From positions 17,416,945-17,480,944 of the forward strand of contig NC_087079.1 in NCBI RefSeq assembly GCF_026151205.1: 64,000 bases of DNA. The letters run 5' to 3'. The stretch is from Bolinopsis microptera (Eukaryota > Ctenophora > Tentaculata > Lobata > Bolinopsidae). Shown here piece by piece: positions 25,102 through 59,366 of this stretch. Made by a program: the position numbers and the translations under genes. The notes beneath the pieces were generated by a model. That model had not been told where the DNA came from and searched no databases. It worked only from the letters and a program-made list of their open reading frames with translations. Position 1 is the first letter of the stretch. Each line of letters starts with the position of its first letter.

Positions 25102-25604
25102 TGATCTAGCGAGAAGCTTGTATCACGTTGCGACCCGCACGGTCGTTTCACTATCGTCGCGTCCTGACGATACAGGGGCCCGGGAGCCGCGCACTTCGTG
25201 CGCGGCGGGTCATACAACGTATGACAACGAGAAGCATAATTGAGTGCGCGGCGCGGCACAGTAACGCATCGCGCTACAAGCATATGAACTGTAACTGTGA
25301 ATTGTAGCGTGTAGCGCAATGCTGAATGCACCGCGGGCCTTACCTAGCTTGCTAGTCTAATTGCTCGCTACTCTCACGTATAGGAAACAGAAAGCTGTTC
25401 AGGAAGCTTCAGGGAAAGTAAAGTAAAACATAAAATGTATGACATCACATCATCACACATTTCTACAAAATATCATCGCACTATGCGAAAAAATATATGG
25501 ATACGTTCATTTGAGTTTGAGGATTTTGTTTTTTAAAAGTTAATTGAGGATATTAATTTTTAAAAACTATCTAAATTTGAAAGGAGAACATTCTGATCAT
25601 GATG
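25102..25604. other. GC-rich then AT-rich non-coding stretch
   Basis: 25102-25340 is unusually GC-rich for the window and holds a perfect hairpin at 25187-25205 (CCGCGCAC, TTC loop, GTGCGCGG). It shares GTCGTTTCAC and ACGATACAGGGG phrases with the adjacent MITE interior. The rest is AT-rich. No gene recognised. Confidence 0.4.
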
Positions 25605-25605
25605 G

Positions 25606-27969
25606 TTGTTAGATTGTAGATTTTTGAGGATATTGGTAAACAAAAATAATAGCGTTTTCGACGATACCCCTGCAACAAAACGTGAGGGGCCAGAGAAACT
25701 TCCAACAATCGATATCCAACCTGTATTGTTTGAAGAAATCGATGGCGAAGCTATAAAAGCTGCGGCCAAGAATACCCATGGTTCAGGAGGCCCCACCCTC
25801 ATAGATGCTGATGGTTGGAAACATATCTTATGCTCAAAGAGCTATGGAAAATCCAACGATATCCTAGCTCAAGCCATAGCCGATGTCACCAAAAGACTAT
25901 GCACAGAAACTATTGATCCTTCCATGCTCAGTGACCTTCTTGCAAGTAGATTGATCCCTTTAGATAAGCGACCAGGAGTCAGACCTATCGGTGAAGTTTT
26001 GCGACGTATCATGACAAAAACTGTAACAAGAACCATCAAAGAACACATTAAGGAAGCAAGTGGGTCTCTTCAAACTTGTAGTGGCATTGAGTCAGGCATA
26101 GAGGCTGCAGTTCACTCAATGGCTGAGAACTTTGCCAACGAGAATAGCCAAGGCCTTCTCCTAGTTGATGCATCAAATGCTTTCAACAGTTTACACCGAG
26201 AGCAGGCCCTAGATACTGTTGCAACAACCTGCCCTGTGTTTCACCAATTTCTCAAAAACACCTATCAAGCAAGGACAAAGCTCTTTATTTCAGGGTCAAA
26301 GTCAGGGGAGTTCATCTGGGGTGAAGAAGGAAACACTCAAGGAGATGTTGCAGCAATGCAATTTTACTCCATAGCCACTAGACCTATAATAGATGATCTC
26401 AGAGCTTATGCAGAAGCAACCATGGTGTGGTACGCTGATGACAGCTCCGCATGTGGAAGCTTCATCCAACTTCTTCAGTGGTGGAATAGACTCTGTGACA
26501 TCGGCCCGGGATATGGGTACTACCCCAACGCTAAAAAGACCATTCTAATTGTCAAGAATCCCGAAGACCAAACTGAAGCAGAGACTCTATTTGGGCATCT
26601 TGGAGTTAAGATCACGACATCTGGAGAACGTCACCTTGGTGCTGTGGTAGGCTCAAAGAAATACAGGGAAGATTACATTAAAGAAAAAGTTGAGAAATGG
26701 ATAACAGATATTGAGCAACTTGCTGATATTGCATCTGAAGAACCACAGCTGGCTTATTCAGCTTTCACCAAAGGAGTATGCCACCGATGGAGGTTCTTCA
26801 TGAGGACAATACCTGATATTGCTGAGTACTTTGCCCCACTGGAGAGCAAGATCATGCATGTGCTCATTCCAGCCTTCCTTGGTCGCCCAGTCAGCCAGCA
26901 CGAGAGAGATATCCTTGAACTTCCTGTTCGATGTGGAGGGCTAGGCATTATCAATCCTGTCCGGATAACATCCCGTGAATATGTTTACTCAGTAGCAGTA
27001 ACTAAAGACCTTGTGAGTTTGATCAACCAACAAGACCAGGATATCACCAAGCTGGATCTGGGCAAGATAAAAGAAAAGAAAGAAGAACTGAGGAAACAGA
27101 AAGAGGAGTTTCTCTCCCAAAGGTTCAAGGTGCTCTATAATGAGTCAGATCATCAACTTAAGAACCACCTAGACCAAGCAAGAGAGAAGGGAGCCTCAAC
27201 ATGGCTCTCAACACTACCACTGAAGGACCTCAACTATGTTCTGAACAGGCAGGAGTTCCAAGACAGCATACGCCTACGTTATGGTTGGAAGATCCAAGGA
27301 GTGCCCTCTAAATGTGCCTGCGGAAATGTAAACAGTATCTACCACGCCCTTGACTGTAAACTAGGTGGATATGTTTCCATGCGCCACAATGCCATAAGAG
27401 ACACTGCTGCTTTCTTCCTCCGAGAAGCAAAGTGTAAAGATGTAAGGATAGAACCAGCACTCCTGACAGTCCAACCAAGCTCATTCTCAAGGAAGACCAA
27501 CACCCAGGATGAAGCCCGTCTTGATGTAGCAGCTGTCGGATTGTATGCACCTTTTGAAAGAACATTCTATGACATCAGGGTCACACATCCTAACTGTGAC
27601 ACAAATACATTTAAGCCACTAGATAAGATCTATAGAGATCATGAGAAAGAAAAGAAAGATTTGTATGAAGAGAGAGTACTTCAGTCGGAGAAGGGATCCT
27701 TTGTCCCTCTAGTCTTCACAACCTCCGGAGGTATGGGACCGCTCTGCACAGTGTTTGTAGATCGTGTCTCTGAGATGATAGCTGACCACAAAAAAGAAGC
27801 CAAGAGCCAAGTCAAAAATCATATCAGAACACGATTCAGATTCGATCTGTTAAGAAGTACACTCATTGCACTGAGGGGAATCAGAGGAAGGTCAACAGCC
27901 CAGCATCTTGAACTGCAAGACGTATCCTTCAACCTCATTCCCCAGAAGACGAGCTTTGAGGTCTCCTAG
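25606..27969 (+). CDS. Retroelement ORF: reverse transcriptase plus restriction-like endonuclease
   Basis: Uninterrupted ORF of 787 codons. Its first ~20 codons lie in the flank and target duplication, so the element's own part starts near 25667 without a native start, implying 5' truncation of a longer protein. Reverse-transcriptase motifs are intact: RPGVRPIGEVLRRI, LLLVDASNAFNSLHRE (catalytic Asp), GNTQGDVAAMQFY and MVWYADDSS (YADD box). After a coiled, Lys/Glu-rich segment comes a Cys/His cluster (CACGNVNS..HALDCKLGG..MRHN) and RLDVAAVG..FYDIRV, which fits the PD-(D/E)xK-like restriction-type endonuclease placed C-terminal to the RT in R2-like elements. The end (LVFTTSGGMGP) recalls proteins common in cnidarian and sponge genomes. 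The intact frame suggests a young copy. Clade assignment is not certain. Confidence 0.85.
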   Translation: MLDCRFLRILVNKNNSVFDDTPATKREGPEKLPTIDIQPVLFEEIDGEAIKAAAKNTHGSGGPTLIDADGWKHILCSKSYGKSNDILAQAIADVTKRLCTETIDPSMLSDLLASRLIPLDKRPGVRPIGEVLRRIMTKTVTRTIKEHIKEASGSLQTCSGIESGIEAAVHSMAENFANENSQGLLLVDASNAFNSLHREQALDTVATTCPVFHQFLKNTYQARTKLFISGSKSGEFIWGEEGNTQGDVAAMQFYSIATRPIIDDLRAYAEATMVWYADDSSACGSFIQLLQWWNRLCDIGPGYGYYPNAKKTILIVKNPEDQTEAETLFGHLGVKITTSGERHLGAVVGSKKYREDYIKEKVEKWITDIEQLADIASEEPQLAYSAFTKGVCHRWRFFMRTIPDIAEYFAPLESKIMHVLIPAFLGRPVSQHERDILELPVRCGGLGIINPVRITSREYVYSVAVTKDLVSLINQQDQDITKLDLGKIKEKKEELRKQKEEFLSQRFKVLYNESDHQLKNHLDQAREKGASTWLSTLPLKDLNYVLNRQEFQDSIRLRYGWKIQGVPSKCACGNVNSIYHALDCKLGGYVSMRHNAIRDTAAFFLREAKCKDVRIEPALLTVQPSSFSRKTNTQDEARLDVAAVGLYAPFERTFYDIRVTHPNCDTNTFKPLDKIYRDHEKEKKDLYEERVLQSEKGSFVPLVFTTSGGMGPLCTVFVDRVSEMIADHKKEAKSQVKNHIRTRFRFDLLRSTLIALRGIRGRSTAQHLELQDVSFNLIPQKTSFEVS

Positions 27970-31300: not shown

Positions 31301-34300
31301 ATGAAAAATGGCGAAGAGAAGTCGTATGTAATAGCAGACCGTGAGGATGCTAGTGATATAAGTGAACCCGAAATAATCAATTCTGCATCTTACAGTAATG
31401 GAGGTGGGTATGACAACGATGCAGATAATATTATGTTATTTGGGTATTTATTTTTAACAGACCTCCCGTGTTAATGTTATGTATTAACATAATTAAGTTT
31501 ATTTCTCTTTCCATTGCAATTTTAATAATTTGAAAATGGAATTTAATGCAAAAACATCATGCATAATGGATACTTGGAATAATTTAGTGTGTTATTATAG
31601 GCAGATGTTGGTATGTGAGATTTTAGCTCAGCCCCACATTCGTAACCGTGAAGTACAGTAGAACACACATAACTATATTCAGCAGTAATACACCAACTTG
31701 GCAAGTAGTAAAATATTTAATATTATCAATGATTACTTATCATCACGAAGCTAACGTAGTCTTTAAACAATAATGTGAAATATTTCTCACCAGAGAGCAG
31801 CGACTCTGCAGACAGAAGCGGGGTCCTGGTAGCTCATGTACCTGATTTACCATCTACTGTTACATTCCTTGAGGGTCCTTCCGGTAGCCAGGTACAGACA
31901 TTAACTAGAATTACACTTTACATTGTGTAAGAAATTATCAGATTTTTGGCGATTTCTCAGAAGCTAAGTCTCTTAGGCCTTAAGTTTGTTCATAGCACTA
32001 ATTGAGGTCTGTATCTCAATTAGAAGATGAGATAATTTATAGTGGGGGTCGCGATATGGGTGTGGTCAAAAAGGGTGTGATTCCGAGAAATTCCCCACTG
32101 GTGAAAAAGTGTACCCGAGTAAATAGTGTTATTTAGGACCATATAAGTCGGATTACATCGAGAAACTTAGCGGACGTCCCAATGTGAGCGGGAATTTTGC
32201 CAGGTACAGGCTGGGATTATTATATACACTCTCCATTTGATGAGGTATATGAGAAGTGAGAATATATCTCAATTTGAGTGTTGAGACTCAGTTTTAAAGC
32301 TGAGGACTGATAAGGATAGTGCTATTCAGCATTACAGCGTTCTCTTTGACCAAAATCAGAAACAAAACACTCCCTTCCACCAATTATTGTTGAATTATAC
32401 TTATTGTTCAGGAATAGAATTTGTTATTCGGTTTTCATTGAGTGCGTAAATGTTATTAATTCACATCTGCTCTGTTATAAATTAAGTCGAATTACACTAA
32501 CTAGAATATTTAGTACATCATTTGATAGCTCTAATTTTGTAAATATAAACGTCTACCCTAATTCAACGTTCTTCACGGCAGGTTTACATAATCGGAACAG
32601 CACATTTCTCTGAAGAAAGTAATCAAGATGTTGTTAGCACTATTGAGAAAGTTCAGCCTCACATCGTCTGTTTGGAGCTGTGTAAAAACAGGGTACGTGT
32701 CACGTGTCACGTGTCAACTTTTAAAGTGTCATTTAATAATCAGCTCTGAGTGAAGCTTTTTTAAGCTACTACTCGTATGTAATGGAATTGAAAGCGTATT
32801 TCAATAGAATGATTTCTTCATTATCCCGAACAAGGGATTACCATTGGCATGTAGATACGGTTCTAATATTATCTTGATTTATTAGAGAAAAGTTAACTTT
32901 GGTTATTTCTGGTGTTCGTACTTGGCGACTGGGCTCATCGTTATATTAAAGTCATTATTGTAACGGTATATTAGAACCAGACAGAAACAAAGTGTGAAGG
33001 GCCTGAACGGAACCCCTCGGTTTCAATTCCTTGCTTAACACTGCCGTACAGCAAGGAAATTCACCATTAATGATATAATTCATCTTGATATAATTTCAGT
33101 TGCACGTGATCAAGTGCTCGGAGGAGGAGATCCTGGAAGAAGTGCAGAATATCGGGCTGAACAAGGTCAAGGAACTCATCTCAAGATCGGGGGTGTTTTA
33201 TGGACTATTCCAGCTGGCCTTCCTTCATCTCAGTGCTGGGCTAACTAAACAGCTCGGCATGGCCCCTGGCGGAGAGTTCAGGTAGAATAGCTGTATAACA
33301 TATCGGCATGGCCCCTGGCGGAGAGTTCAGGTAGAATAGCTGTATAACATATCGGCATGGCCCCTGGCGGAGAGTTCAGGTAGAATAGCTGTATAACATA
33401 TCGGCATGGCTCCTGGCGGAGAGTTCAGGTAGAATAGCTGTATAACATATTGGCATGGCCCCTGGCGGAGAGTTCAGGTAGAATAGCTGTATAACATATC
33501 GGCATGGCCCCTGGCGGAGAGTTCAGGTAGAATAGCTGTATAACATATCGGCATGGCCCCTGGCGGAGAGTTCAGGTAGAATAGCTGTATAACATATCGG
33601 CATGGCCCCTGGCGGAGAGTTCAGGTAGAATAGCTGTATAACATATCGGCATGGCCCCTGGCGGAGAGTTCAGGTAGAATAGCTGTATAACATATCAGCA
33701 TGGCCCCTGGCGGAGAGTTCAGGTAGAATAGCTGTATAACATATTGGCATGGCCCCTGGCGGAGAGTTCAGGTAGAATAGCTGTATAACATATCGGCATG
33801 GCCCCTGGCGGAGAGTTCAGGTAGAATAGCTGTATAACATATCGGTATGGCCCCTGGCGGAGAGTTCAGGTAGAATAGCTGTATAACATATCGGCATGGC
33901 CCCTGGCGGAGAGTTCAGGTAGAATAGCTGTATAACATATCGGCATGGCCCCTGGCGGAGAGTTCAGGTAGAATAGCTGTATAACATATCAGCATGGCCC
34001 CTGGCGGAGAGTTCAGGTAGAATAGCTGTATAACATATTGGCATGGCCCCTGGCGGAGAGTTCAGGTAGAATAGCTGTATAACATATCGGCATGGCCCCT
34101 GGCGGAGAGTTCAGGTAGAATAGCTGTATAACATATCGGTATGGCCCCTGGCGGAGAGTTCAGGTAGAATAGCTGTATAACATATCGGCATGGCCCCTGG
34201 CGGAGAGTTCAGGTAGAATAGCTGTATAACATATCGGCATGGCCCCTGGCGGAGAGTTCAGGTAGAATAGCTGTATAACATATTGGCATGGCCCCTGGCG

Positions 34301-37300
34301 GAGAGTTCAGGTAGAATAGCTGTATAACATATCGGCATGGCCCCTGGCGGAGAGTTCAGGTAGAATAGCTGTATAACATATCGGTATGGCCCCTGGCGGA
34401 GAGTTCAGGTAGAATAGCTGTATAACATATCGGCATGGCCCCTGGCGGAGAGTTCAGGTAGAATAGCTGTATAACATATCGGCATGGCCCCTGGCGGAGA
34501 GTTCAGGTAGAATAGCTGTATAACATATCAGCATGGCCCCTGGCGGAGAGTTCAGGTAGAATAGCTGTATAACATATTGGCATGGCCCCTGGCGGAGAGT
34601 TCAGGTAGAATAGCTGTATAACATATCGGCATGGCCCCTGGCGGAGAGTTCAGGTAGAATAGCTGTATAACATATCGGTATGGCCCCTGGCGGAGAGTTC
34701 AGGTAGAATAGCTGTATAACATATCGGCATGGCCCCTGGCGGAGAGTTCAGGTAGAATAGCTGTATAACATATCGGCATGGCCCCTGGCGGAGAGTTCAG
34801 GTAGAATAGCTGTATAACATATCGGCATGGCCCCTGGCGGAGAGTTCAGGTAGAATAGCTGTATAACATATTGGCATGGCCCCTGGCGGAGAGTTCAGGT
34901 AGAATAGCTGTATAACATATCGGCATGGCCCCTGGCGGAGAGTTCAGGTAGAATAGCTGTATAACATATCGGCATGGCCCCTGGCGGAGAGTTCAGGTAG
35001 AATAGCTGTATAACATATCGGTATGGCCCCTGGCGGAGAGTTCAGGTAGAATAGCTGTATAACATATCGGCATGGCCCCTGGCGGAGAGTTCAGGTAGAA
35101 TAGCTGTATAACATATCGGCATGGCCCCTGGCGGAGAGTTCAGGTAGAATAGCTGTATAACATATCGGCATGGCCCCTGGCGGAGAGTTCAGGTAGAATA
35201 GCTGTATAACATATCGGCATGGCCCCTGGCGGAGAGTTCAGGTAGAATAGCTGTATAACATATCGGCATGGCCCCTGGCGGAGAGTTCAGGTAGAATAGC
35301 TGTATAACATATCGGCATGGCCCCTGGCGGAGAGTTCAGGTAGAATAGCTGTATAACATATCGGCATGGCCCCTGGCGGAGAGTTCAGGTAGAATAGCTG
35401 TATAACATATCGGCATGGCCCCTGGCGGAGAGTTCAGGTAGAATAGCTGTATAACATATCGGCATGGCCCCTGGCGGAGAGTTCAGGTAGAATAGCTGTA
35501 TAACATATCGGCATGGCCCCTGGCGGAGAGTTCAGGTAGAATAGCTGTATAACATATCGGCATGGCCCCTGGCGGAGAGTTCAGGTAGAATAGCTGTATA
35601 ACATATCGGCATGGCCCCTGGCGGAGAGTTCAGGTAGAATAGCTGTATAACATATCGGCATGGCCCCTGGCGGAGAGTTCAGGTAGAATAGCTGTATAAC
35701 ATATCGGCATGGCCCCTGGCGGAGAGTTCAGGTAGAATAGCTGTATAACATATCGGCATGGCCCCTGGCGGAGAGTTCAGGTAGAATAGCTGTATAACAT
35801 ATCGGCATGGCCCCTGGCGGAGAGTTCAGGTAGAATAGCTGTATAACATATCGGCATGGCCCCTGGCGGAGAGTTCAGGTAGAATAGCTGTATAACATAT
35901 CGGCATGGCCCCTGGCGGAGAGTTCAGGTAGAATAGCTGTATAACATATCGGCATGGCCCCTGGCGGAGAGTTCAGGTAGAATAGCTGTATAACATATCG
36001 GCATGGCCCCTGGCGGAGAGTTCAGGTAGAATAGCTGTATAACATATCGGCATGGCCCTGGCGGAGAGTTCAGGTAGAATAGCTGTATAACATATCGGCA
36101 TGGCCCCTGGCGGAGAGTTCAGGTAGAATAGCTGTATAACATATCGGCATGGCCCCTGGCGGAGAGTTCAGGTAGAATAGCTGTATAACATATCGGCATG
36201 GCCCCTGGCGGAGAGTTCAGGTAGAATAGCTGTATAACATATCGGCATGGCCCCTGGCGGAGAGTTCAGGTAGAATAGCTGTATAACATATTGGCATGGC
36301 CCCTGGCGGAGAGTTCAGGTAGAATAGCTGTATAACATATCGGCATGGCCCCTGGCGGAGAGTTCAGGTAGAATAGCTGTATAACATATCGGCATGGCCC
36401 CTGGCGGAGAGTTCAGGTAGAATAGCTGTATAACATATTGGCATGGCCCCTGGCGGAGAGTTCAGGTAGAATAGCTGTATAACATATCGGCACGGCCCCT
36501 GGCGGAGAGTTCAGGTAGAATAGCTGTATAACATATCGGCATGGCCCCTGGCGGAGAGTTCAGGTAGAATAGCTGTATAACATATCGGCATGGCCCCTGC
36601 GGAGAGTTCAGGTAGAATAGCTGTATAACATATCGGCATGGCCCCTGGCGGAGAGTTCAGGTAGAATAGCTGTATAACATATCGGTATGGCCCCTGGCGG
36701 AGAGTTCAGGTAGAATAGCTGTATAACATATCGGCATGGCCCCTGGCGGAGAGTTCAGGTAGAATAGCTGTATAACATATCGGCATGGCCCCTGGCGGAG
36801 AGTTCAGGTAGAATAGCTGTATAACATACCGGCATGGCCCCTGGCGGAGAGTTCAGGTAGAATAGCTGTATAACATATCGGCATGGCCCCTGGCGGAGAG
36901 TTCAGGTAGAATAGCTGTATAACATATCGGCATGGCCCCTGGCGGAGAGTTCAGGTAGAATAGCTGTATAACATATTGGCATGGCCCCTGGCGGAGAGTT
37001 CAGGTAGAATAGCTGTATAACATATCGGCATGGCCCCTGGCGGAGAGTTCAGGTAGAATAGCTGTATAACATATCGGCATGGCCCCTGGCGGAGAGTTCA
37101 GGTAGAATAGCTGTATAACATATCGGCATGGCCCCTGGCGGAGAGTTCAGGTAGAATAGCTGTATAACATATCGGCATGGCCCCTGGCGGAGAGTTCAGG
37201 TAGAATAGCTGTATAACATATCAGCATGGCCCCTGGCGGAGAGTTCAGGTAGAATAGCTGTATAACATATCGGCATGGCCCCTGGCGGAGAGTTCAGGTA

Positions 37301-40300
37301 GAATAGCTGTATAACATATCGGCATGGCCCCTGGCGGAGAGTTCAGGTAGAATAGCTGTATAACATATTGGCATGGCCCCTGGCGGAGAGTTCAGGTAGA
37401 ATAGCTGTATAACATATCGGCATGGCCCCTGGCGGAGAGTTCAGGTAGAATAGCTGTATAACATATTGGCATGGCCCCTGGCGGAGAGTTCAGGTAGAAT
37501 AGCTGTATAACATATCGGCATGGCCCCTGGCGGAGAGTTCAGGTAGAATCTGTATAACATATCGGCATGGCCCCTGGCGGAGAGTTCAGGTAGAATAGCT
37601 GTATAACATATCGGCATGGCCCCTGGCGGAGAGTTCAGGTAGAATAGCTGTATAACATATCGGCATGGCCCCTGGCGGAGAGTTCAGGTAGAATAGCTGT
37701 ATAACATATCGGCATGGCCCCTGGCGGAGAGTTCAGGTAGAATAGCTGTATAACATATCGGCATGGCCCCTGGCGGAGAGTTCAGGTAGAATAGCTGTAT
37801 AACATATCGGCATGGCCCCTGGCGGAGAGTTCAGGTAGAATAGCTGTATAACATATCGGCATGGCCCCTGGCGGAGAGTTCAGGTAGAATAGCTGTATAA
37901 CATATCGGCATGGCCCCTGGCGGAGAGTTCAGGTAGAATAGCTGTATAACATATCGGCATGGCCCCTGGCGGAGAGTTCAGGTAGAATAGCTGTATAACA
38001 TATCGGCATGGCCCCTGGCGGAGAGTTCAGGTAGAATAGCTGTATAACATATCGGCATGGCCCCTGGCGGAGAGTTCAGGTAGAATAGCTGTATAACATA
38101 TCGGCATGGCCCCTGGCGGAGAGTTCAGGTAGAATAGCTGTATAACATATCGGCATGGCCCCTGGCGGAGAGTTCAGGTAGAATAGCTGTATAACATATC
38201 GGTATGGCCCCTGGCGGAGAGTTCAGGTAGAATAGCTGTATAACATATCGGCATGGCCCCTGGCGGAGAGTTCAGGTAGAATAGCTGTATAACATATCGG
38301 CATGGCCCCTGGCGGAGAGTTCAGGTAGAATAGCTGTATAACATATCGGCATGGCCCCTGGCGGAGAGTTCAGGTAGAATAGCTGTATAACATATTGGCA
38401 TGGCCCCTGGCGGAGAGTTCAGGTAGAATAGCTGTATAACATATCGGCATGGCCCCTGGCGGAGAGTTCAGGTAGAATAGCTGTATAACATATCGGTATG
38501 GCCCCTGGCGGAGAGTTCAGGTAGAATAGCTGTATAACATATCGGCATGGCCCCTGGCGGAGAGTTCAGGTAGAATAGCTGTATAACATATCGGCATGGC
38601 CCCTGGCGGAGAGTTCAGGTAGAATAGCTGTATAACATATCAGCATGGCCCCTGGCGGAGAGTTCAGGTAGAATAGCTGTATAACATATTGGCATGGCCC
38701 CTGGCGGAGAGTTCAGGTAGAATAGCTGTATAACATATCGGCATGGCCCCTGGCGGAGAGTTCAGGTAGAATAGCTGTATAACATATCGGCATGGCGGAT
38801 GGCCCCTGGCGGAGAGTTCAGGTAGAATCTGTATAAAATTGTTTGAGAGGCAAACCCTCAACCCTGAACTCTATTACCACAACGCCCGTACAAATTTGGC
38901 CCCCTCTCCTAAATTGCGTTCAGTTATTGCGATAGCCCTAGCCGATACAATTCAAGTAAATTGTTGCTCACATTAATTTTATTGAGTTGTTAGCTTCGCA
39001 AATAAGTTGAGAGAATCCTCAATTCGGTCTGACGTGAGAAACAAGTCGTAAGAGGTTGTGTTTTAAATTGTTTAGCCTTTTTATACATTGGAAATATTTA
39101 AAACACTACTTTCCATAAAACCAACTTTAATGAAACTGTAAAACAGACTTTAAATTTACAGCTGAAGGAGCAACCCATGTTTTTGATTTAAAGGGAGACC
39201 GAAACCGATTCCCTTCCGAGAACTCAGAATCTAAAACTAATAAATCTGCCGATGTAGATAGTTATAACGCACAAATATTTAAACAATTTAGCCAAAATTG
39301 TATCTTATTCTAGGGATTCTATTATTCAATAAATATCAATCAAACTGTTCTTTATTAAAAAAGCAAAGATATTTAAAATAAATAAATGGATGCTTTAAAA
39401 GATGAAAGGAGTTGTAAAAATTACGACTCTCCGATTTAAGAACTACTTATTAAAAGAAATAATTCTACGAGATGGCTATTTAGGAGAACTAGTGGAAGAA
39501 GTTATCATTTATTACTTACAAACTATTACGATAATTCAAACCAGCATACAGAGAACAAATGACCCAGGTTAGTGTAGAGAAAATACATTTCTCACGTTTC
39601 AGGGCAGCGTATAGAAAAGGAAGAGAACTAGGCTGCACATTCCGACTGAGTGACAGATCGATACAGACCACACTGCAGCGAGCCATCTACTCGCTGACCG
39701 TGTGGAAACAGCTTGGACTTGCTGTGAAAACTTATCTTTAACAACGAGAAGATAACCAAGGAGGATGTGGAGAGTTTCAAGGGTGACGTTCTTCAGGTTA
39801 CTATGGTTACGATGGTTAAATTGGTTACTATGGTTACATAGGATACTAAAGTTAAATTTGAGAATAAATGTCTTGGGGCGGACAACAATAATCACATGAT
39901 GGATTTTGAAAGCTTTGTTACAAACAAATTAAGATCGTATTATGCAATATGCATATTACGTGGCTGAGAAGGGCAAATGAAATATGGTTTATTTGTAATT
40001 AGTTTTAATTAGTTTTATTTAGTTTTAATTAGTTGTAATTAGTTGTAATTAGTTGTAATTAGTTGTAATTAGTTGTAATTAGTTGTAATTAGTTGTAATT
40101 AGTTGTAATTAGTTGTAATTATTTGTAATTAGTTGTAACTAGTTGTAATTAATTGTAACTAGTTTATCTCACTCACAGAAGCTGATAGAGGAGATCACGG
40201 GAGAGTATCCCAACCTGTCCAGAATATTCGTGGATGAGAGAGACCAGTTCCTGTCGAGGAGGATATTTGACGCTTCTGGGGAGGCAGTGTGCAAACACAC

Positions 40301-43300
40301 GTCAAGCAACGTAGATTATATTTAGCACGTGTAGTTGCGTTATTACTTAATTATAGTTTTGTCCACTTTACTGCAAGTTCATCGCACCCTCAGAGAAAAC
40401 TTGGAGCTTTTATATTCCGATCACATAAGTTAATGGGGCGTGTTTGTATTTTGTAGTGTAATATTGTATACTATACTGTAGTGTATACTTGTAGTGTAAT
40501 ATTGTATACTAAACTTAAAGTGTGCTCTCAGAATGAGTCTGATGACTCAGAAGATTGTGTCGCTGTCGAAGAAAAGACGAGAATTGTGGCGGTCGTCGGA
40601 ATTGGACATATAGCTGGTCAGTATAGTTACTTCTACGGTTTACACTTCAACCCCCTATAGGGTATTTGTTTCCAAACTGAGGGGATTTTGCTTGCAAAAT
40701 TTATCCACAATTTACAAAAATTCTTTCAATATTTTTCAAATAACAAACGTGATCCTGAGGGCTGAGATACGTGATTTGAAAGGTGCTCCTCAATTTGAAT
40801 GAGGAATGTGAGGTGTCTCCTCTGTTTTGAAACTGTATCTGAAAACTGATATCTATCACCAATGTGCTTCTATACCTTTTATGTTGCCGATGGTCCTTGT
40901 TGGTGCTGTTATTCGAATTTAAAGGGGGTTGCTTTAAAAATTGATACATTAGCTGGCACCGATATTTCCATGGTAGGATATTTTCCAAGGTGCAATCTAT
41001 GGAACAAGATCACATGACTCTTTGTAACTGTTATTTAGAATATATATTCGCATGTATCCACACTATATTTACATTACACGTTCAACGTAATATCATTATC
41101 AGTGCAGTGTGTACAACACCAACTACACCGATCAATTGCCAATCTGCGAAACATTTAATTATTATTATCACTTCGAGATGGCAGGGCCTACTCTCATGCT
41201 GTCTATAGGTGATGATTAATTCTGAAAAACTAGGGACAACTGGGGAATGATCCCAGAACCTCGACATTTCGCGTGCCTTGCTCTACCAATTGAGCTACTG
41301 ACCCTGATTTTCAGAGCGAAATCACCACTCATATACAGCACAATTTCATGCTTTGTGTGGAATATCATTTATCAGTTATTTAGAATATATATTCGCATGT
41401 ATCCACACTATATTTACATTACACGTTCAACTCTTTGTAACTCTTTATAACATGACCGATCAAATTCCTCTGTGCATTCATTTGGTGAATGCACAGACTG
41501 TGCACAGACAAATGCGGAGAAAACGAAGTTTAATGTTTCTCTCCACTTATTAATATTTTACCGGGGAAATCACAGGGCTCCAATACTCTAAATTACAGTG
41601 GTCATGATCTATCCTATAGTGATAATGACCACAGTCTCCTGCGAAGAAGGAGAACCTGAAAATCCGATCGTTGGGTTCAGTTGTCGTATTTCCGATTTCG
41701 GTGCAGTTGTGATATGACCTGGGTTCAGTTGTCGTTTTGGGATTTAAGCTGATCGGTCACCCAATTAAGCTGATTGGGTGCCTGTTAACTAGGTTCAATT
41801 GGGTTCAGTTGTCGGTCACCCGTTAAGGCTGGCAGTCAAACGAGCTATATTTGAACTGTAAATAAGTAGTAGTGACGTCACTATTACGTCACTATTACGT
41901 CACTATTACGTCACTATTACGTCACTATTAATGAACTGCAGATAAGCTTTCCTCATATTCAGCTATGAGGAGATATTGTACTAATTTATAAATCACTTAA
42001 GACGATCTTCTGAAATTAATTGTTACCTCTTTTTACAGGGATAAAGAAGTACTGGGGCTCTACTGTAGATTGTGAAGCACTGTGTATCATCCCAGAGTCT
42101 TCCGTCACATCCAGAGTACTCGCCAAAACAATCAAGGTTTGTCACATTTTCTACTATTTTCCTGTGTATGTTTTACATCCCTAATTAAACTAAGGATATG
42201 ATTATGATAAAGTGATTGACCTGCAAGCAACTTCTGAAATTCAAATGTCTCAGAACTGAGTGATCATGTTCCCACATACTATTTGAACCATGTATAATAA
42301 TATCTCTTCTTCACTTAGTATTCATGTTATTTTCTGGGATGACTAGTTTAAACACTGCTGAGTATAAGTTTTATATTAATAGCGGTGTTATTAAATTCCA
42401 ATTTATTATTATTATTATATCTACTATTCGCTACACGAATTAACAAATTAATTAAAAAATTATCAAGTCAAGGCATGCGGCAACTTGGTCGTTTAGCTCC
42501 GGACAGTCTATGCAACGTCTATGCAACGTCCATGCAACAACAAAAGAACCGTCTATGCAACGTCTATGCAACGTCCCTGTACAATGAACACTCTATGCAC
42601 ACTCCCTGCACGGTCAGTCTATGCAACGTCTATGCAACGTCTATGCAACGTCTATGCAACGTCCCTGCACAGTACCATATGAACACCGGCTACTAGCCGG
42701 CTACTAGCCGGCTAGTAGCCACTTTTGTAATAACAGCTCCTCAACTTCACATTACCAACCGGCTACTAACCGGCACTTGAAAAGTGGTCACTAGCCGGCT
42801 ACTAACCGGCTACTAGCCGGCTAGTGACCACAAAGTGGCTACTAACCGGCTACTAAGCGGTCACTAGCCGGCTATTAGCCGAGCTCTAAAGCAGACCTAC
42901 TAGTAGCCGGTTCCAAACCGGCTACTAGCCGGCACTTAGAAAGCGGTCACTAGCCGGCTACTAACCGGCTACTAACCGGCTAGTAACCACCAAGTGGCTA
43001 CTAACCGGCTACTAACCGGTCACTAGCCGGCTCTTAAGCGGACCTACTAGTTTGGAACCGGCTACTAGTAGGTCCGCTTAAGAGCTCGGCTAATAGCCGG
43101 CTAGTGACCGCTTAGTAGCCGGTTAGTAGCCACTTTGTGGTCACTAGCCGGCTAGTAGCCGGTTAGTAGCCGGCTAGTGACCACTTTTCAAGTGCCGGTT
43201 AGTAGCCGGTTGGTAATGTGAAGTTGAGGAGCTGTTATTACAAAAGTGGCTACTAGCCGGCTAGTAGCCGGCTAGTAGCCGGTGTTCATATGGTACTGTG

Positions 43301-43994
43301 CAGGGACGTTGCATAGACGTTGCATAGACGTTGCATAGACGTTGCATAGACTGACCGTGCAGGGAGTGTGCATAGAGTGTTCATTGTGCAGGGACGTTGC
43401 ATAGACGTTGCATAGACGGTTCTTTTGTTGTTGCACGGACGTTGCATAGACGTTGCATAGACTGTCCGGAGCTAAACGACCAACTTCCCAGGCATGCTTA
43501 TGTTAACAGATAAGAAAAATTTTCAACGTCAAATATGTTGCATATTTCACTCCCGTGAAAATTGCCTGCTTTACAAATATTTTCACTGGATGCTATCTGA
43601 TGATACCGCACCCTTTTTCACAGCTGCAAAATGGGTTTCATGTTACTAATTTTCTAACTTAATTTTACATATTTAGACCATCTCTCTATCTTATTGAGAG
43701 ATGTCATCTTTCTCAATTTGACAAGTCCCCATAGGGTAGAATGTAAATGCAACTGAAGCTAATTATGCACTGGTATACATACATCAAGTACCAGTACCGA
43801 TTGAATATCTATCATAATTTTGGAAACATAATTAACAAAGAATATAATTTCAGTACTCAGTTCTGTCGTTGCTGCTGTACGGTACCTACAAGGTTATGTC
43901 GCTGGGCTACAACGGAGTCTACCCTTACCTACCCTCAGTCTCTCCTTATCTGTATTCTCTATTTGACTTACTCAAATCCTTCACCAACTTTTAG
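31301..43994 (+). CDS. TRABD: TraB domain-containing protein with a giant minisatellite intron and a frameshift
   Basis: Nine exons by phase and similarity: 31301-31403, 31794-31891, 32582-32692, 33100-33281, 39603-39796, 40179-40310, 40532-40616, 42039-42136, 43854-43994, about 380 aa (human 376). Conserved blocks: VYIIGTAHFSEES, VQPHIVCLELC (exon 3), TKQLGMAPGGEF (end of exon 4), CTFRLSDRSIQTTLQRAI (exon 5), GEYPNLSRIFVDERD (exon 6), VGIGHIAG (exons 7-8) and a C-terminal hydrophobic segment (exon 9). TraB/TIKI-like proteins of this branch sit at the mitochondrial outer membrane; catalytic role uncertain. Exon 5 contains one base too many for the frame: after VWKQLGLAV the A4 run at 39727-39730 leads to TAA at 39739, while the +1 frame continues perfectly (FNNEKITKEDVESFK). 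So either a sequence error or a disabling mutation. Exon 6's donor (AAC|GTAGAT) is tentative; GCA|GTGTGC is an alternative. Confidence 0.88.
33000..33063 (+). repeat. Short dispersed repeat with internal hairpin, copy B
   Basis: Located in TRABD intron 3. Matches 11879-11941 (GGAACC, GGTTTCA, TCCTTGCTTAAC, GCCGTACAGCAAGG, TTCACC). The CCTTGCT...AGCAAGG pair forms a hairpin. Confidence 0.5.
33256..38838 (+). repeat. 49-bp minisatellite, about 114 copies, derived from exon 4 plus its splice donor
   Basis: The unit begins GGCATGGCCCCTGGCGGAGA, continues GTTCAG|GTAGAATAGC, and ends TGTATAACATATC. The first copy is the end of TRABD exon 4 (coding GMAPGGEF) and the start of intron 4. About 5.58 kb divided by 49 gives about 114 units, almost all identical apart from the variants TTGG, CAGC and CGGT at the unit junction, and a few indels (36058, 36599, 37548, last unit). 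Every unit carries the exon end and the GT donor. Using any donor after the first would add an in-frame TAG, so only the first is productive. Confidence 0.98.
39998..40163 (+). repeat. AT-rich 10-bp tandem repeat (AGTTGTAATT)n
   Basis: About 16 copies of AGTTGTAATT and close variants in TRABD intron 5, ending just before the acceptor of exon 6. Confidence 0.9.
41031..41432. repeat. Direct repeat pair flanking a tRNA-like sequence
   Basis: A ~54-bp block (TTATTTAGAATATATATTCG ... ACATTACACGTTCAAC) occurs at 41031-41085 and again at 41379-41432 in TRABD intron 7. A tRNA-like sequence lies between them. Confidence 0.75.
41233..41304 (-). repeat. tRNA-Ala-like relic or tRNA-derived SINE head
   Basis: On the minus strand: GGGTCAG acceptor start, GTAGCTCAATTGGTAGAGCA (a good A box and D-arm), CACGCGAAATGTCG anticodon region, then a CTGGG-ATCATTC-CCCAG T-arm and TTGTCCC closing six of seven acceptor pairs. 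This is close to animal tRNA-Ala, but position 33 is not T, and the T-loop differs from TTCRANY. Probably a decayed tRNA or SINE head rather than a working gene; a divergent tRNA cannot be excluded. Confidence 0.5.
41873..41931 (+). repeat. 11-bp tandem repeat (GTCACTATTAC)n
   Basis: Five consecutive GTCACTATTAC units in TRABD intron 7, each containing an ACGTCA half-CRE-like phrase at the junction. Confidence 0.9.
42345..42412 (-). repeat. Short hairpin repeat, shared with 53731-53837
   Basis: The block AACACTGCTGAGTATAAG, a TTTTATATTAATAGC stretch, then GTGTTATTAAATTCCAATTT is the diverged reverse complement of 53750-53818. It lies in TRABD intron 8. Confidence 0.6.
42473..43497. mobile_element. 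~1-kb fold-back element built of palindromic CCGGCTACTAG repeats
   Basis: The ends are GCATGC and an inverted AACTTGGTCGTTTAGCTCCG block (42483 and 43471-43490). Inside each arm are runs of TATGCAACGTC (or its complement GACGTTGCATA) and then many copies of CTACTAGCCGG/CTACTAACCGG, themselves near-palindromic. The arms meet near 43047-43063. The left arm is longer, from extra internal copies. No ORF with coding character. It sits in TRABD intron 8 and would give a very strong hairpin in the pre-mRNA. Confidence 0.85.
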
Positions 43995-48780: not shown

Positions 48781-49500
48781 AATGCGAGCAATAGAATTAG
48801 GAGCCACTGCAGATAAGATAATACTAAACTTAGAATTAGGAGCCACTTCAGATAAGATAGTACGCTCACTAAACTTTGAATTAGGAGCTACTTCATATAA
48901 GATAGTGCTAAACTTAGAATTAGGAGCCACTTCAGATAAGATAGTACGCTCACTAAACTTAGAATTAGGAGCCACTTCAGATAAGATAGTACTCTCAGAT
49001 AAGATAGTACGCTCACTAGAATTAGAATTAGGAGCCACTTCAGATAAGATAGTACGCTCACTAAACTTAGAATCTGGAGACACTTCAGATAAGATAGTAC
49101 GCTCACTAGACTTAATTAGGAGCCACTTCAGATAAGATAGTACTCTCACTAAACTTAGAATTAGGAACCACTTCAGATAACTAGATAAGATAGTACGCTC
49201 ACTAAACTTAGAATTAGGAACCACTTCAGATAACTAGATAAGATAGTACGCTCACTAAACTTAGAATCTGGAGACACTTCAGATAAGATAGTACGCTCAC
49301 TAGACTTAATTAGGAGCCACTTCAGATAAGATAGTACTCTCACTAAACTTAGAATTAGGAACCACTTCAGATAAGATAGTACTCTCACTAAACTTAGAAT
49401 TAGGAACCACTTCAGATAACTAGATAAGATAGTACGCTCACTAAACTTAGAATTAGGAACCACTTCAGATAACTAGATAAGATAGTACGCTCACTAGACT
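48781..49500 (+). repeat. 45-bp minisatellite array 1
   Basis: About 16 imperfect units of 45 bp beginning CTTAGAATTAGGAGCCACTT and continuing CAGATAAGATAGTACGCTCA. Because 45 is a multiple of three and the unit has no stop in several frames, long ORFs appear on both strands; they are not genes. Some units have deletions or an extra CTAGATAA. The array heads tandem unit A. Confidence 0.95.
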
Positions 49501-50270
49501 TATGTTTCAATGAGTGACCATATGATGTGTGTATCTGAACATGTCATGCAGATAAGTTAGAGCCAATCCTAGCAAGGACCTATCGGATAGTAGTAAGATT
49601 TTTAATGCAATAATTTTCTTTATATCCAGCCAGTGAACATTGATCAGGTCATCTTCAAGATGGTCGTGTTAATTTAGTTGAACAATACATTTACGGTCCT
49701 GGAGTTAAAAAGCATTACTTGAATTGAAATTTCATCCAGCAGGATTAACTCCATTGAACTGAAGAGTAAACCGCAGTCAGATGGCTGATAAAGAAACACG
49801 TGAACTTTAACGTGAACTGCACTGTTGGTTATTGTTTGGAATAAATCTTAACTTTCCCTTGAAGAGGTAGTCAGACTAAATATATGGTAGAAACATTTAA
49901 GGATTTATTAGTTCATGAGCCTGTGTTTGTACCTGGACCTTATAACACCAACTGGTGAGTAAATAAGTGAAGCAGGCACGTGCAGCTCCACTGTACCTTT
50001 TGTTAAACTAACTTTCTCGGAACCTAATCCTGCCATTCCCTAGAAAAAAAATTGATAGCGTTTTTATTAGTGAACATGCGCTCTAAGAATTTGCACGTGT
50101 TGGAGCATTATTCTAGAAACAAAGAGCCTTTATCAATAAACGCACTGGTGGTTTGAAAGAGCATGATAATTTGACATGGTGTGGGGAGGCCCTGTGAAGG
50201 AAGCTGCAACGGTAAGACTGCAGTAGTCAGAGAGCCCTGTGGAGGCGGGATTGAGGAGAGTTACGAATAT

Positions 50271-54024: not shown

Positions 54025-54270
54025 GCTCACTAAACTTAGAATTAGGAGCCACTTCAGATAAGATAGTGCGCTCACTAGACTTAGAATTAGTAGCCACTTC
54101 AGATAAGATAGTACTCTCACTAAACTTAGGGTTAGGAGCCACTTCGGATAAGATAGTACGCTCACTAAACTTAGAATTAGGAGCCACTTCAGATAAGATA
54201 GTACGCTCACTAAACTTAGAATTAGGAGCCACTTCAGATAAGATAGTACTCTCACTAAACTTAGAATAAG
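54025..54270 (+). repeat. 45-bp minisatellite array 2
   Basis: Five to six copies of the CTTAGAATTAGGAGCCACTT unit between tandem units A and B. ORFs on both strands are repeat artefacts. Confidence 0.95.
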
Positions 54271-58789: not shown

Positions 58790-59366
58790 CCACTACAGAT
58801 AAGATAGTACTAAACTTAGAATTAGGAGCCATTTCGGATAAGATAGTACGCTCACTAAATTTAGAATAAGGAGCCACTAAAGATAAGATAGTATAGTACG
58901 CTCACTAAACTTAGAATTAGGAGCCACTTCAGATAAAATGGTACGCTCACTAAACTTAGAATTAGGAGCCACTTCAGATAAGATAGTACTAAACTTAGAA
59001 TTAGGAGCCACTTCAGATAAGATAGTACGCTCACTAAACTTAGAATTAGGAGCCACTTCAGATAAGATAGTACGCTCACTAAACTTAGAATTAGGAGCCA
59101 CTTCAGATAAAATAGTACGCTCACTAAACTTAGAATTAGGAGCCACTTCAGATAAGATAGTACGCTCACTAAAATTAGAAGTAGGAGCCACTTCAGATAA
59201 GATAGTACTCTCACTAAACTTAGAATTAGGAGCCACTTCAGATAAGATAGTACGCTCACTAAACTTAGAATTAGGAGCCACTTCAGATAAGATAGTACGC
59301 TCACTAAACTTAGAATTAGGAGCCACTTCAGATAAGATAGTACGCTCACTAGACTTAGAATAAGTA
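58790..59366 (+). repeat. 45-bp minisatellite array 3
   Basis: About 12-13 units of the CTTAGAATTAGGAGCCACTT repeat, the most regular of the three arrays, at the head of unit C. Long ORFs on both strands come from the repeat. Confidence 0.95.

Follow-up and report, generated by a model that had tools for sequence, protein, structure and literature searches.

Background

Tandem repeats that straddle exon-intron borders have been described in the lancelet as mirages. Excerpts of two reports (PMC3087553, PMC3902484) place them in Adh3, the globin genes BflGb6 and BflGb9 and troponin C, with an imperfect form in PGBD5, and describe minisatellite-like arrays at 5' or 3' edges that are unstable in length and have units of 10-160 bp, many (not all) with AG/GT; according to the excerpt of the first, they did not interfere with regular splicing (PMC3087553). 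A human example, a 31-bp variable number tandem repeat (VNTR) in CBS, is designated c.1444_1467+7(16_21) in an excerpt of PMC2630376, and the Rogers model, as excerpted from PMC4974935, explains intron gain through tandem duplication of AGGT segments. Here we analyse a 49-bp minisatellite in intron 4 of TRABD, a TraB-domain gene, in a stretch of 64,000 nucleotides from the ctenophore Bolinopsis microptera (NC_087079.1, positions 17,416,945-17,480,944, forward strand). This stretch is referred to as the window, and feature coordinates are given within it.

Like the lancelet mirages as excerpted, the TRABD array consists of tandem repeats over an exon-intron border with splice signals inside the repeats; its unit spans both sides of the border and the array adjoins the authentic exon. 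The systems differ in that BflGb6 has 6 and 3 units in two haplotypes, whereas the ctenophore TRABD array has 114 copies of 49 bp and its kind appears to occur in several genes of one genome. The CBS VNTR, so far as its excerpt goes, likewise carries the last exon bases and first intron bases, donor included, in tandem; it comprises 24 + 7 bases (from its name) in 16-21 polymorphic copies, compared with 28 + 21 bases and 114 copies in one assembly for TRABD. The excerpted Rogers model shares with TRABD the tandem copies of AG|GT that yield paired splice sites, but there a new intron arises within an exon while in TRABD an existing intron is lengthened: beyond the array, intron 4 runs on to an ordinary acceptor, and there is no new intron inside the former exon. 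The kind of array is already known from the lancelet mirages and human CBS; TRABD is a large new example, and the recurrence across ctenophore genes is the interesting part. In the literature searched, no match paired TRABD with a minisatellite and no report of exon-edge arrays in ctenophores was found (the only paper that combined ctenophores, minisatellites and introns was irrelevant), which is not proof of absence.

A 49-bp array repeats the TRABD exon 4 donor

Analysis with Tandem Repeats Finder (TRF) revealed a forward-strand minisatellite at 33254-38836 (period 49, 113.9 copies, 98% matches, indels rounded to 0%). Direct counting of CAGGTAGAAT gave 114 copies, each a CAG|GTAGAAT donor, with the first donor at 33282 and the last at 38822; AG comes next after CAGGTAGAAT in 112 of the 114. 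An earlier note on this DNA had described about 114 copies of an exon end and its donor inside TRABD intron 4, filling about 5.6 kb of a 6.3-kb intron, and both statements hold, with intron 4 extending from 33282 to 39602 (6,321 bp) and the array occupying 88% of it. Its division of the unit into 26 + 23 bases had to be corrected: the shared stretch starts at 33254, and the unit joins the 28 terminal bases of exon 4 to the 21 opening bases of intron 4. The exon-side 28 bases of the first unit (33254-33281, from the TRF array start and the sequence) are the end of exon 4 itself, and the 21 intron-side bases (33282-33302) follow at the authentic donor, CAG|GTAGAA.

The distance between donors is 49 bases in 109 of 113 cases, 48 in two, 47 in one and 56 in one. 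All 113 inter-donor units have GT...AG ends and 80 are identical. The final copies deviate, with a 56-base unit near the 3' end (unit K, 38766-38821) followed by the last donor copy, GTAGAATCTGTATAA (38822-38838), where the array passes into unique intron; this last copy has the form GTAGAATCTG, which occurs once more inside the array. The main variants are TCGG to TTGG (13 copies), TCGG to TCAG (5 copies) and GGC to GGT (8 copies), the first two of which would fit deamination of one CpG on either strand. Variants recur with a period of six units (9 matches at lag 6 versus 1.9 expected, 0 of 10,000 shuffles), and 2 of 5,000 shuffles attained the best value over lags 1-20; matches at lag 11 were raised too (6 matches versus 1.9 expected, 68 of 10,000 shuffles). 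Such non-random placement is as stepwise expansion would give. The array includes a run of 20 identical units, so the copy number is only as reliable as the assembly. A 445-base probe gave 19 genome matches (best candidates only scored), all inside the array on contig C8, and the TRABD array was found at one locus in the genome.

The seven TRABD exons, all on the forward strand, were called from reading frames and GT/AG borders, the borders of exons 6 and 7 being tentative. Exon 1 (31301-31403) carries the start codon and reads MKNGEEKSYV...SNG up to its donor; exon 2 (31794-31891) continues the frame from CACCAG|AGAGCA to CAG|gtacag; exon 3 (32582-32692) reads VYIIGTAHFSEES...CKNR; and exon 4 (33100-33281) reads LHVIKCSEEEI...KQLGMAPGGEF followed by AG. 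Downstream of the array lie exon 5 (39603-39796, AAYRKGRELGCTFRL...), exon 6 (40179-40310, KLIEEITGEYPNLSRIFVDERDQ..., with a tentative 3' border) and exon 7 (40532-40616, NESDDSEDCVAVEEKTRIVAVVGIGHIAG), up to which the gene was traced. Introns 1-6 measure 390, 690, 407, 6321, 382 and 221 bases, with the array accounting for the length of intron 4. The peptide encoded by exons 3 and 4 and the beginning of exon 5 matched Pfam TraB_PrgY_gumN above the cut-off (E 9.8e-8), and the exon 4/intron 4 border was placed by reading frame together with this match; exons 6 and 7 gave a weak TraB match below the cut-off (E 0.019). A whole-genome Pfam search for TraB gave no match, probably owing to the short exons, and exons 4 and 5 as single queries gave one match each. 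The name TRABD comes from the earlier note and presumably applies, in keeping with the human protein. At 194 bases, exon 5 is one base longer than would keep exons 4 and 6 in register, and near 39730 its conserved reading jumps out of frame 1 into frame 2; this break may be an assembly error, a polymorphism or a real lesion.

Predicted consequences for splicing

Each unit ends in AG and the next starts with GT, such that cutting out any run of units restores exon 4|GTAGAA. Every unit is formally an intron, and the predicted harmful outcome is a retained unit: use of any of donors 2-114 without internal splicing would place a TAG stop right after GGEFR at all 113 retained lengths. The claim that only the first donor keeps the frame is therefore half right, since the stop after later donors is found throughout but removal of internal units restores the border and the frame need not break. 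By eye, the unit contains TATAAC about 32 bases before its end and no pyrimidine tract. D-type units (n = 5), which have an extra AG, could speculatively give a 24-base in-frame mini-exon.

The predicted duplex of the array donor with U1 (-8.0) ranks second of the seven TRABD donors, which makes it an ordinary donor. We also considered structural masking of the donors and rejected it, as the 206 bases spanning the first units are predicted to fold less stably than shuffled sequences (z +2.09; 199 of 200 shuffles equally or more stable). The genome contains at least 10 U1 loci above the Rfam cut-off, and the two located in L003 begin with the canonical 5' sequence ATACTTACCTG. U1 is very abundant in cells. 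Given this abundance and the number of loci, the titration of U1 by the array that the earlier note had raised is implausible.

Exon-edge arrays recur elsewhere in the genome

The genome was searched for three copies of a strong donor spaced 30-60 bases apart, with reversed patterns as a control; places counted are not the same as independent arrays, and we claim no targeted mechanism from an excess of a pattern. Triple tandems of CAGGTRAG were found at 871+1290 places compared with 33+307 for the reversed control (at least three arrays, on C1, among the places listed), those of CAGGTAAGT at 154+291 places (445) compared with 0+0 (11 arrays among the places listed, one already in the CAGGTRAG set), and those of BGGTAAGT at 1820+2847 places compared with 14+39 (13 groups among the places listed, all within 13 Mb of the start of C1). 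The 13 distinct arrays listed for the first two patterns were all fetched (L004-L006 and L008-L017), together with one place per group from the third (13 loci, of which L032 and L033 share unit and flanks, leaving 12 independent).

Donor-edge arrays were called from our reading of the open frame, the upstream acceptor and the borders. On this reading, arrays lie at coding exon ends in 9 of the 13 loci from CAGGTRAG and CAGGTAAGT (L004, L005, L008, L009, L010, L011, L015, L016 and L017) and clearly so in 3 of the 13 BGGTAAGT loci (L040, L043 and L044); one more, in LMF1 on the opposite strand of L034, was met in passing. This amounts to 13 further donor-edge arrays and a pattern-based yield of 12 in 26 loci (12 in 25 without the repeated family). 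For L032/L033, L035, L036, L037, L039 and L041 a donor edge is absent or doubtful, and L006, L012 and L014 are unclear. Within this small, pattern-selected sample, the TRABD array thus appears not to be a one-off, its architecture recurring at 13 further loci.

Pfam matches above the cut-off were obtained for four of these 13 cases, namely L004 (ADP-specific phosphofructokinase/glucokinase, 2.7e-9), L005 (CFAP69, 1e-24, largely within the exon preceding the one with the array), L016 (Homeodomain, 2.2e-13) and the LMF1 exon on the minus strand of L034 (2.1e-22). Matches below the cut-off were to dynein heavy chain N2 (L043, 1.1e-6), WD40 (L011, 1.7e-5), RhoGEF (L040, 6.5e-4), LDL receptor class B (L009, 0.012), activin receptor (L044, 0.029) and an F5/8-like domain (L008, 0.12), with only about 4 exon bases repeated in the last; L015 had no Pfam match. 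The homeobox locus is the cleanest case. In L016 the Homeodomain match runs to model position 45 of 57 and stops at ...AQIQVQ, where the array starts; 719 of the 771 bases of the intron (L016 2618 to L046 270) are copies of the homeodomain exon end and donor, and the exon after the array starts VWFQNRRAKCK. Immediately upstream of the acceptor of the LMF1 exon lies a 14-bp array, and a 65-bp array of 31 copies starts where the exon ends, at TAC|GTAAGT.

Arrays were also identified at acceptor edges. In L005 (oriented, 127-1777), a 31-bp unit with CCTTCACAG|ACCCAG is present in 53.6 copies that reach a few bases into the CFAP69-like exon, one exon upstream of the donor-edge array. Three copies of a 33-bp unit with CTTTTCAG|AGGGTATCG precede the L017 exon that bears the 42-copy donor array. 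The acceptor-edge array of L013 (2592-2961) comprises ten copies of a 37-bp unit, GTAAGT...TTATTTCAG, and abuts the start of an open exon with a putative likeness to TAF2.

The AG|GT border in the sampled CAG arrays was forced by the search pattern. Two exon-edge arrays lack it, L040 (GTG|GTAAGT) and LMF1 in L034 (TAC|GTAAGT), and arrays can thus persist without AG|GT borders. Selection for such borders was set aside: the BGGTAAGT test was impure in that it catches many non-exon arrays, and the two cases weigh against a requirement. A fixed-position sample of 13 ten-kb pieces of C1-C13 (130,000 bases, 2,796 of them N) contained 38 arrays with a period of at least 11 and at least 2.8 copies, and no general donor excess was observed in them (GTAAGT at least three times in 1 array versus 1 reversed, GT[AG]AG in 3 versus 4, GGTAAG in 1 versus 0). 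Outside arrays in the same sample, motif and reversed counts were about equal, at 63 and 67 for GTAAGT, 9 and 10 for BGGTAAGT and 2 and 0 for CAGGTAAG.

We propose tentatively, as a possibility that may well fail, that exon edges have been turned into minisatellites repeatedly and genome-wide, giving donor and acceptor arrays, sometimes on both sides of an exon and some of them seeded by a splice site pairing with an exonic look-alike. Self-restoring AG|GT ladders would then lengthen introns while the messenger RNA (mRNA) stays unchanged, and the arrays would offer numerous natural replicates for studying how donors are chosen. If the recurrence is genome-wide, it provides many endogenous constructs with 3 to more than 100 near-identical donors after a real exon, which could separate exon definition (first donor), proximity (last donor) and recursive splicing (no mRNA trace). 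If it holds, mirages, described in lancelets and in a single human gene, would be extended to a ctenophore, among the earliest-branching animal lineages, and would offer a simple route to longer introns and to pre-duplicated exon edges for new exons.

Origin of the array and alternative explanations

We consider it quite probable that the TRABD array is a mirage-type minisatellite that arose by duplication at the exon 4/intron 4 border, grew near-neutrally to about 114 units and is removed with intron 4, mostly from the first donor. A short tandem duplication would have straddled the border and expanded by unequal exchange or slippage. Copies would join on the intron side, leaving the coding exon with its own donor, and the acceptor downstream, untouched, so that growth could be nearly neutral. 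The array would leave the pre-mRNA together with intron 4. The first donor would be used in most transcripts because exon definition would pair it alone with the acceptor of exon 4, which lies 182 bases upstream, and splicing within the array would be harmless because each GT...AG unit restores the same border when removed. Short exon-intron matches are present at the ends of other arrays (GATACA in L005, AA in L011, GTAA in LMF1), and terminal donors there differ from the copies: L011 has GTAAGT in its copies and GTAATT in the terminal, presumably original, donor, and LMF1 has GTAAGT and GTAAGG, respectively. No short exon-intron match was found at the TRABD array ends. Anecdotally, the array ends hint that such matches may take part in the birth of arrays.

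Several points weigh against this account. For equal donors, the proximity rule from in vitro work favours the last donor and thus a stop-containing mRNA. Given the frame break in exon 5, the TRABD copy in this allele or assembly may yield no functional protein, and selection may not act on its normal splicing. Among the 13 clear recurrence cases, nine lack a Pfam match above the cut-off (L010 and L017 lay outside the scan), and 14 of the 26 pattern-fetched loci are not clear donor-edge arrays (including L013 at an acceptor edge, L038 and L042 as probable cases and L034 with its edge on the other strand). If donor choice were disturbed, a good part of transcripts would start intron 4 at later donors, carry TAG after GGEFR and be destroyed, and TRABD output would fall with array length. 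Retention of 1 to 113 units does predict an immediate stop in 113 of 113 cases; regular splicing was, however, reported to be unaffected by lancelet mirages in the excerpt of PMC3087553, and we regard such disturbance as unlikely. Mis-assembly of the copy number, or of the whole array, is highly improbable: variants are patterned along the array, arrays of the same kind with different units are present at other loci, and PacBio reads were part of the B. microptera project (excerpt of PMC10232365), although 20 identical units in a row, a frame break in exon 5 possibly due to faulty assembly and a lancelet mirage that looks aberrantly assembled in a draft genome (excerpt of PMC3087553) would be in keeping with it.

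It is rather unlikely that TRABD is a dying gene in which the exon 5 break is real and the array grew since the locus no longer matters. The extra base of exon 5 and the single genome match of each of exons 4 and 5 would suit a dying gene, whereas the remaining six placed exons keep open frames, the TraB match lies above the cut-off and arrays of the same kind are found in genes such as the homeobox gene, with exons open to the edge. Recursive splice sites are AG|GT ratchet points, in which, as in the TRABD array, an acceptor AG is directly followed by a donor GT. The array could by this route be a donor ladder whose TTCAG|GTAGAA borders serve as both acceptor and donor, with units cut stepwise and the last step joining exon 5. 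We find this quite improbable for TRABD: the acceptor looks weak, with almost no pyrimidine tract before AG, the copies come every 49 bases, which is close to the minimum length of an animal intron, and AG|GT is not needed for array survival, as L040 and LMF1 indicate. In its favour, GT...AG ends in 113 of 113 units join acceptor AG to donor GT at each step, and the L013 array on the same contig, with unit GTAAGTAGTCCCATTACTTACTCTTACCTTATTTCAG, joins a pyrimidine-rich acceptor to GTAAGT. The latter would be the best candidate for recursive splicing in this genome sample.

Other features of the window and genome

One 45-bp minisatellite family occupies 48792-49502, 54025-54267 and 58809-59361 and is a dispersed repeat, unlike the TRABD array. 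At 42506-43462, 11-bp repeats are in inverted arrangement (TRF rows mirror-like, by eye), and a 788-codon open frame at 25603-27969 contains a reverse transcriptase domain (Pfam RVT_1, 2.9e-9).

Berovin and mnemiopsin are ctenophore photoproteins, and the matches to them mark this genome as that of a ctenophore. A cytochrome oxidase query gave no match, from which nothing follows. An obelin query gave 55 genome matches, on C1, C2, C3, C5 and C13, 51 of which span query residues 14/15-191 in one open frame. These matches often lie in tandem clusters with a spacing of about 0.94-1.03 kb (e.g. C5:17012730-17026404), and the best photoprotein (L018) has 89% identity to berovin over 175 residues, with mnemiopsin 1 next.

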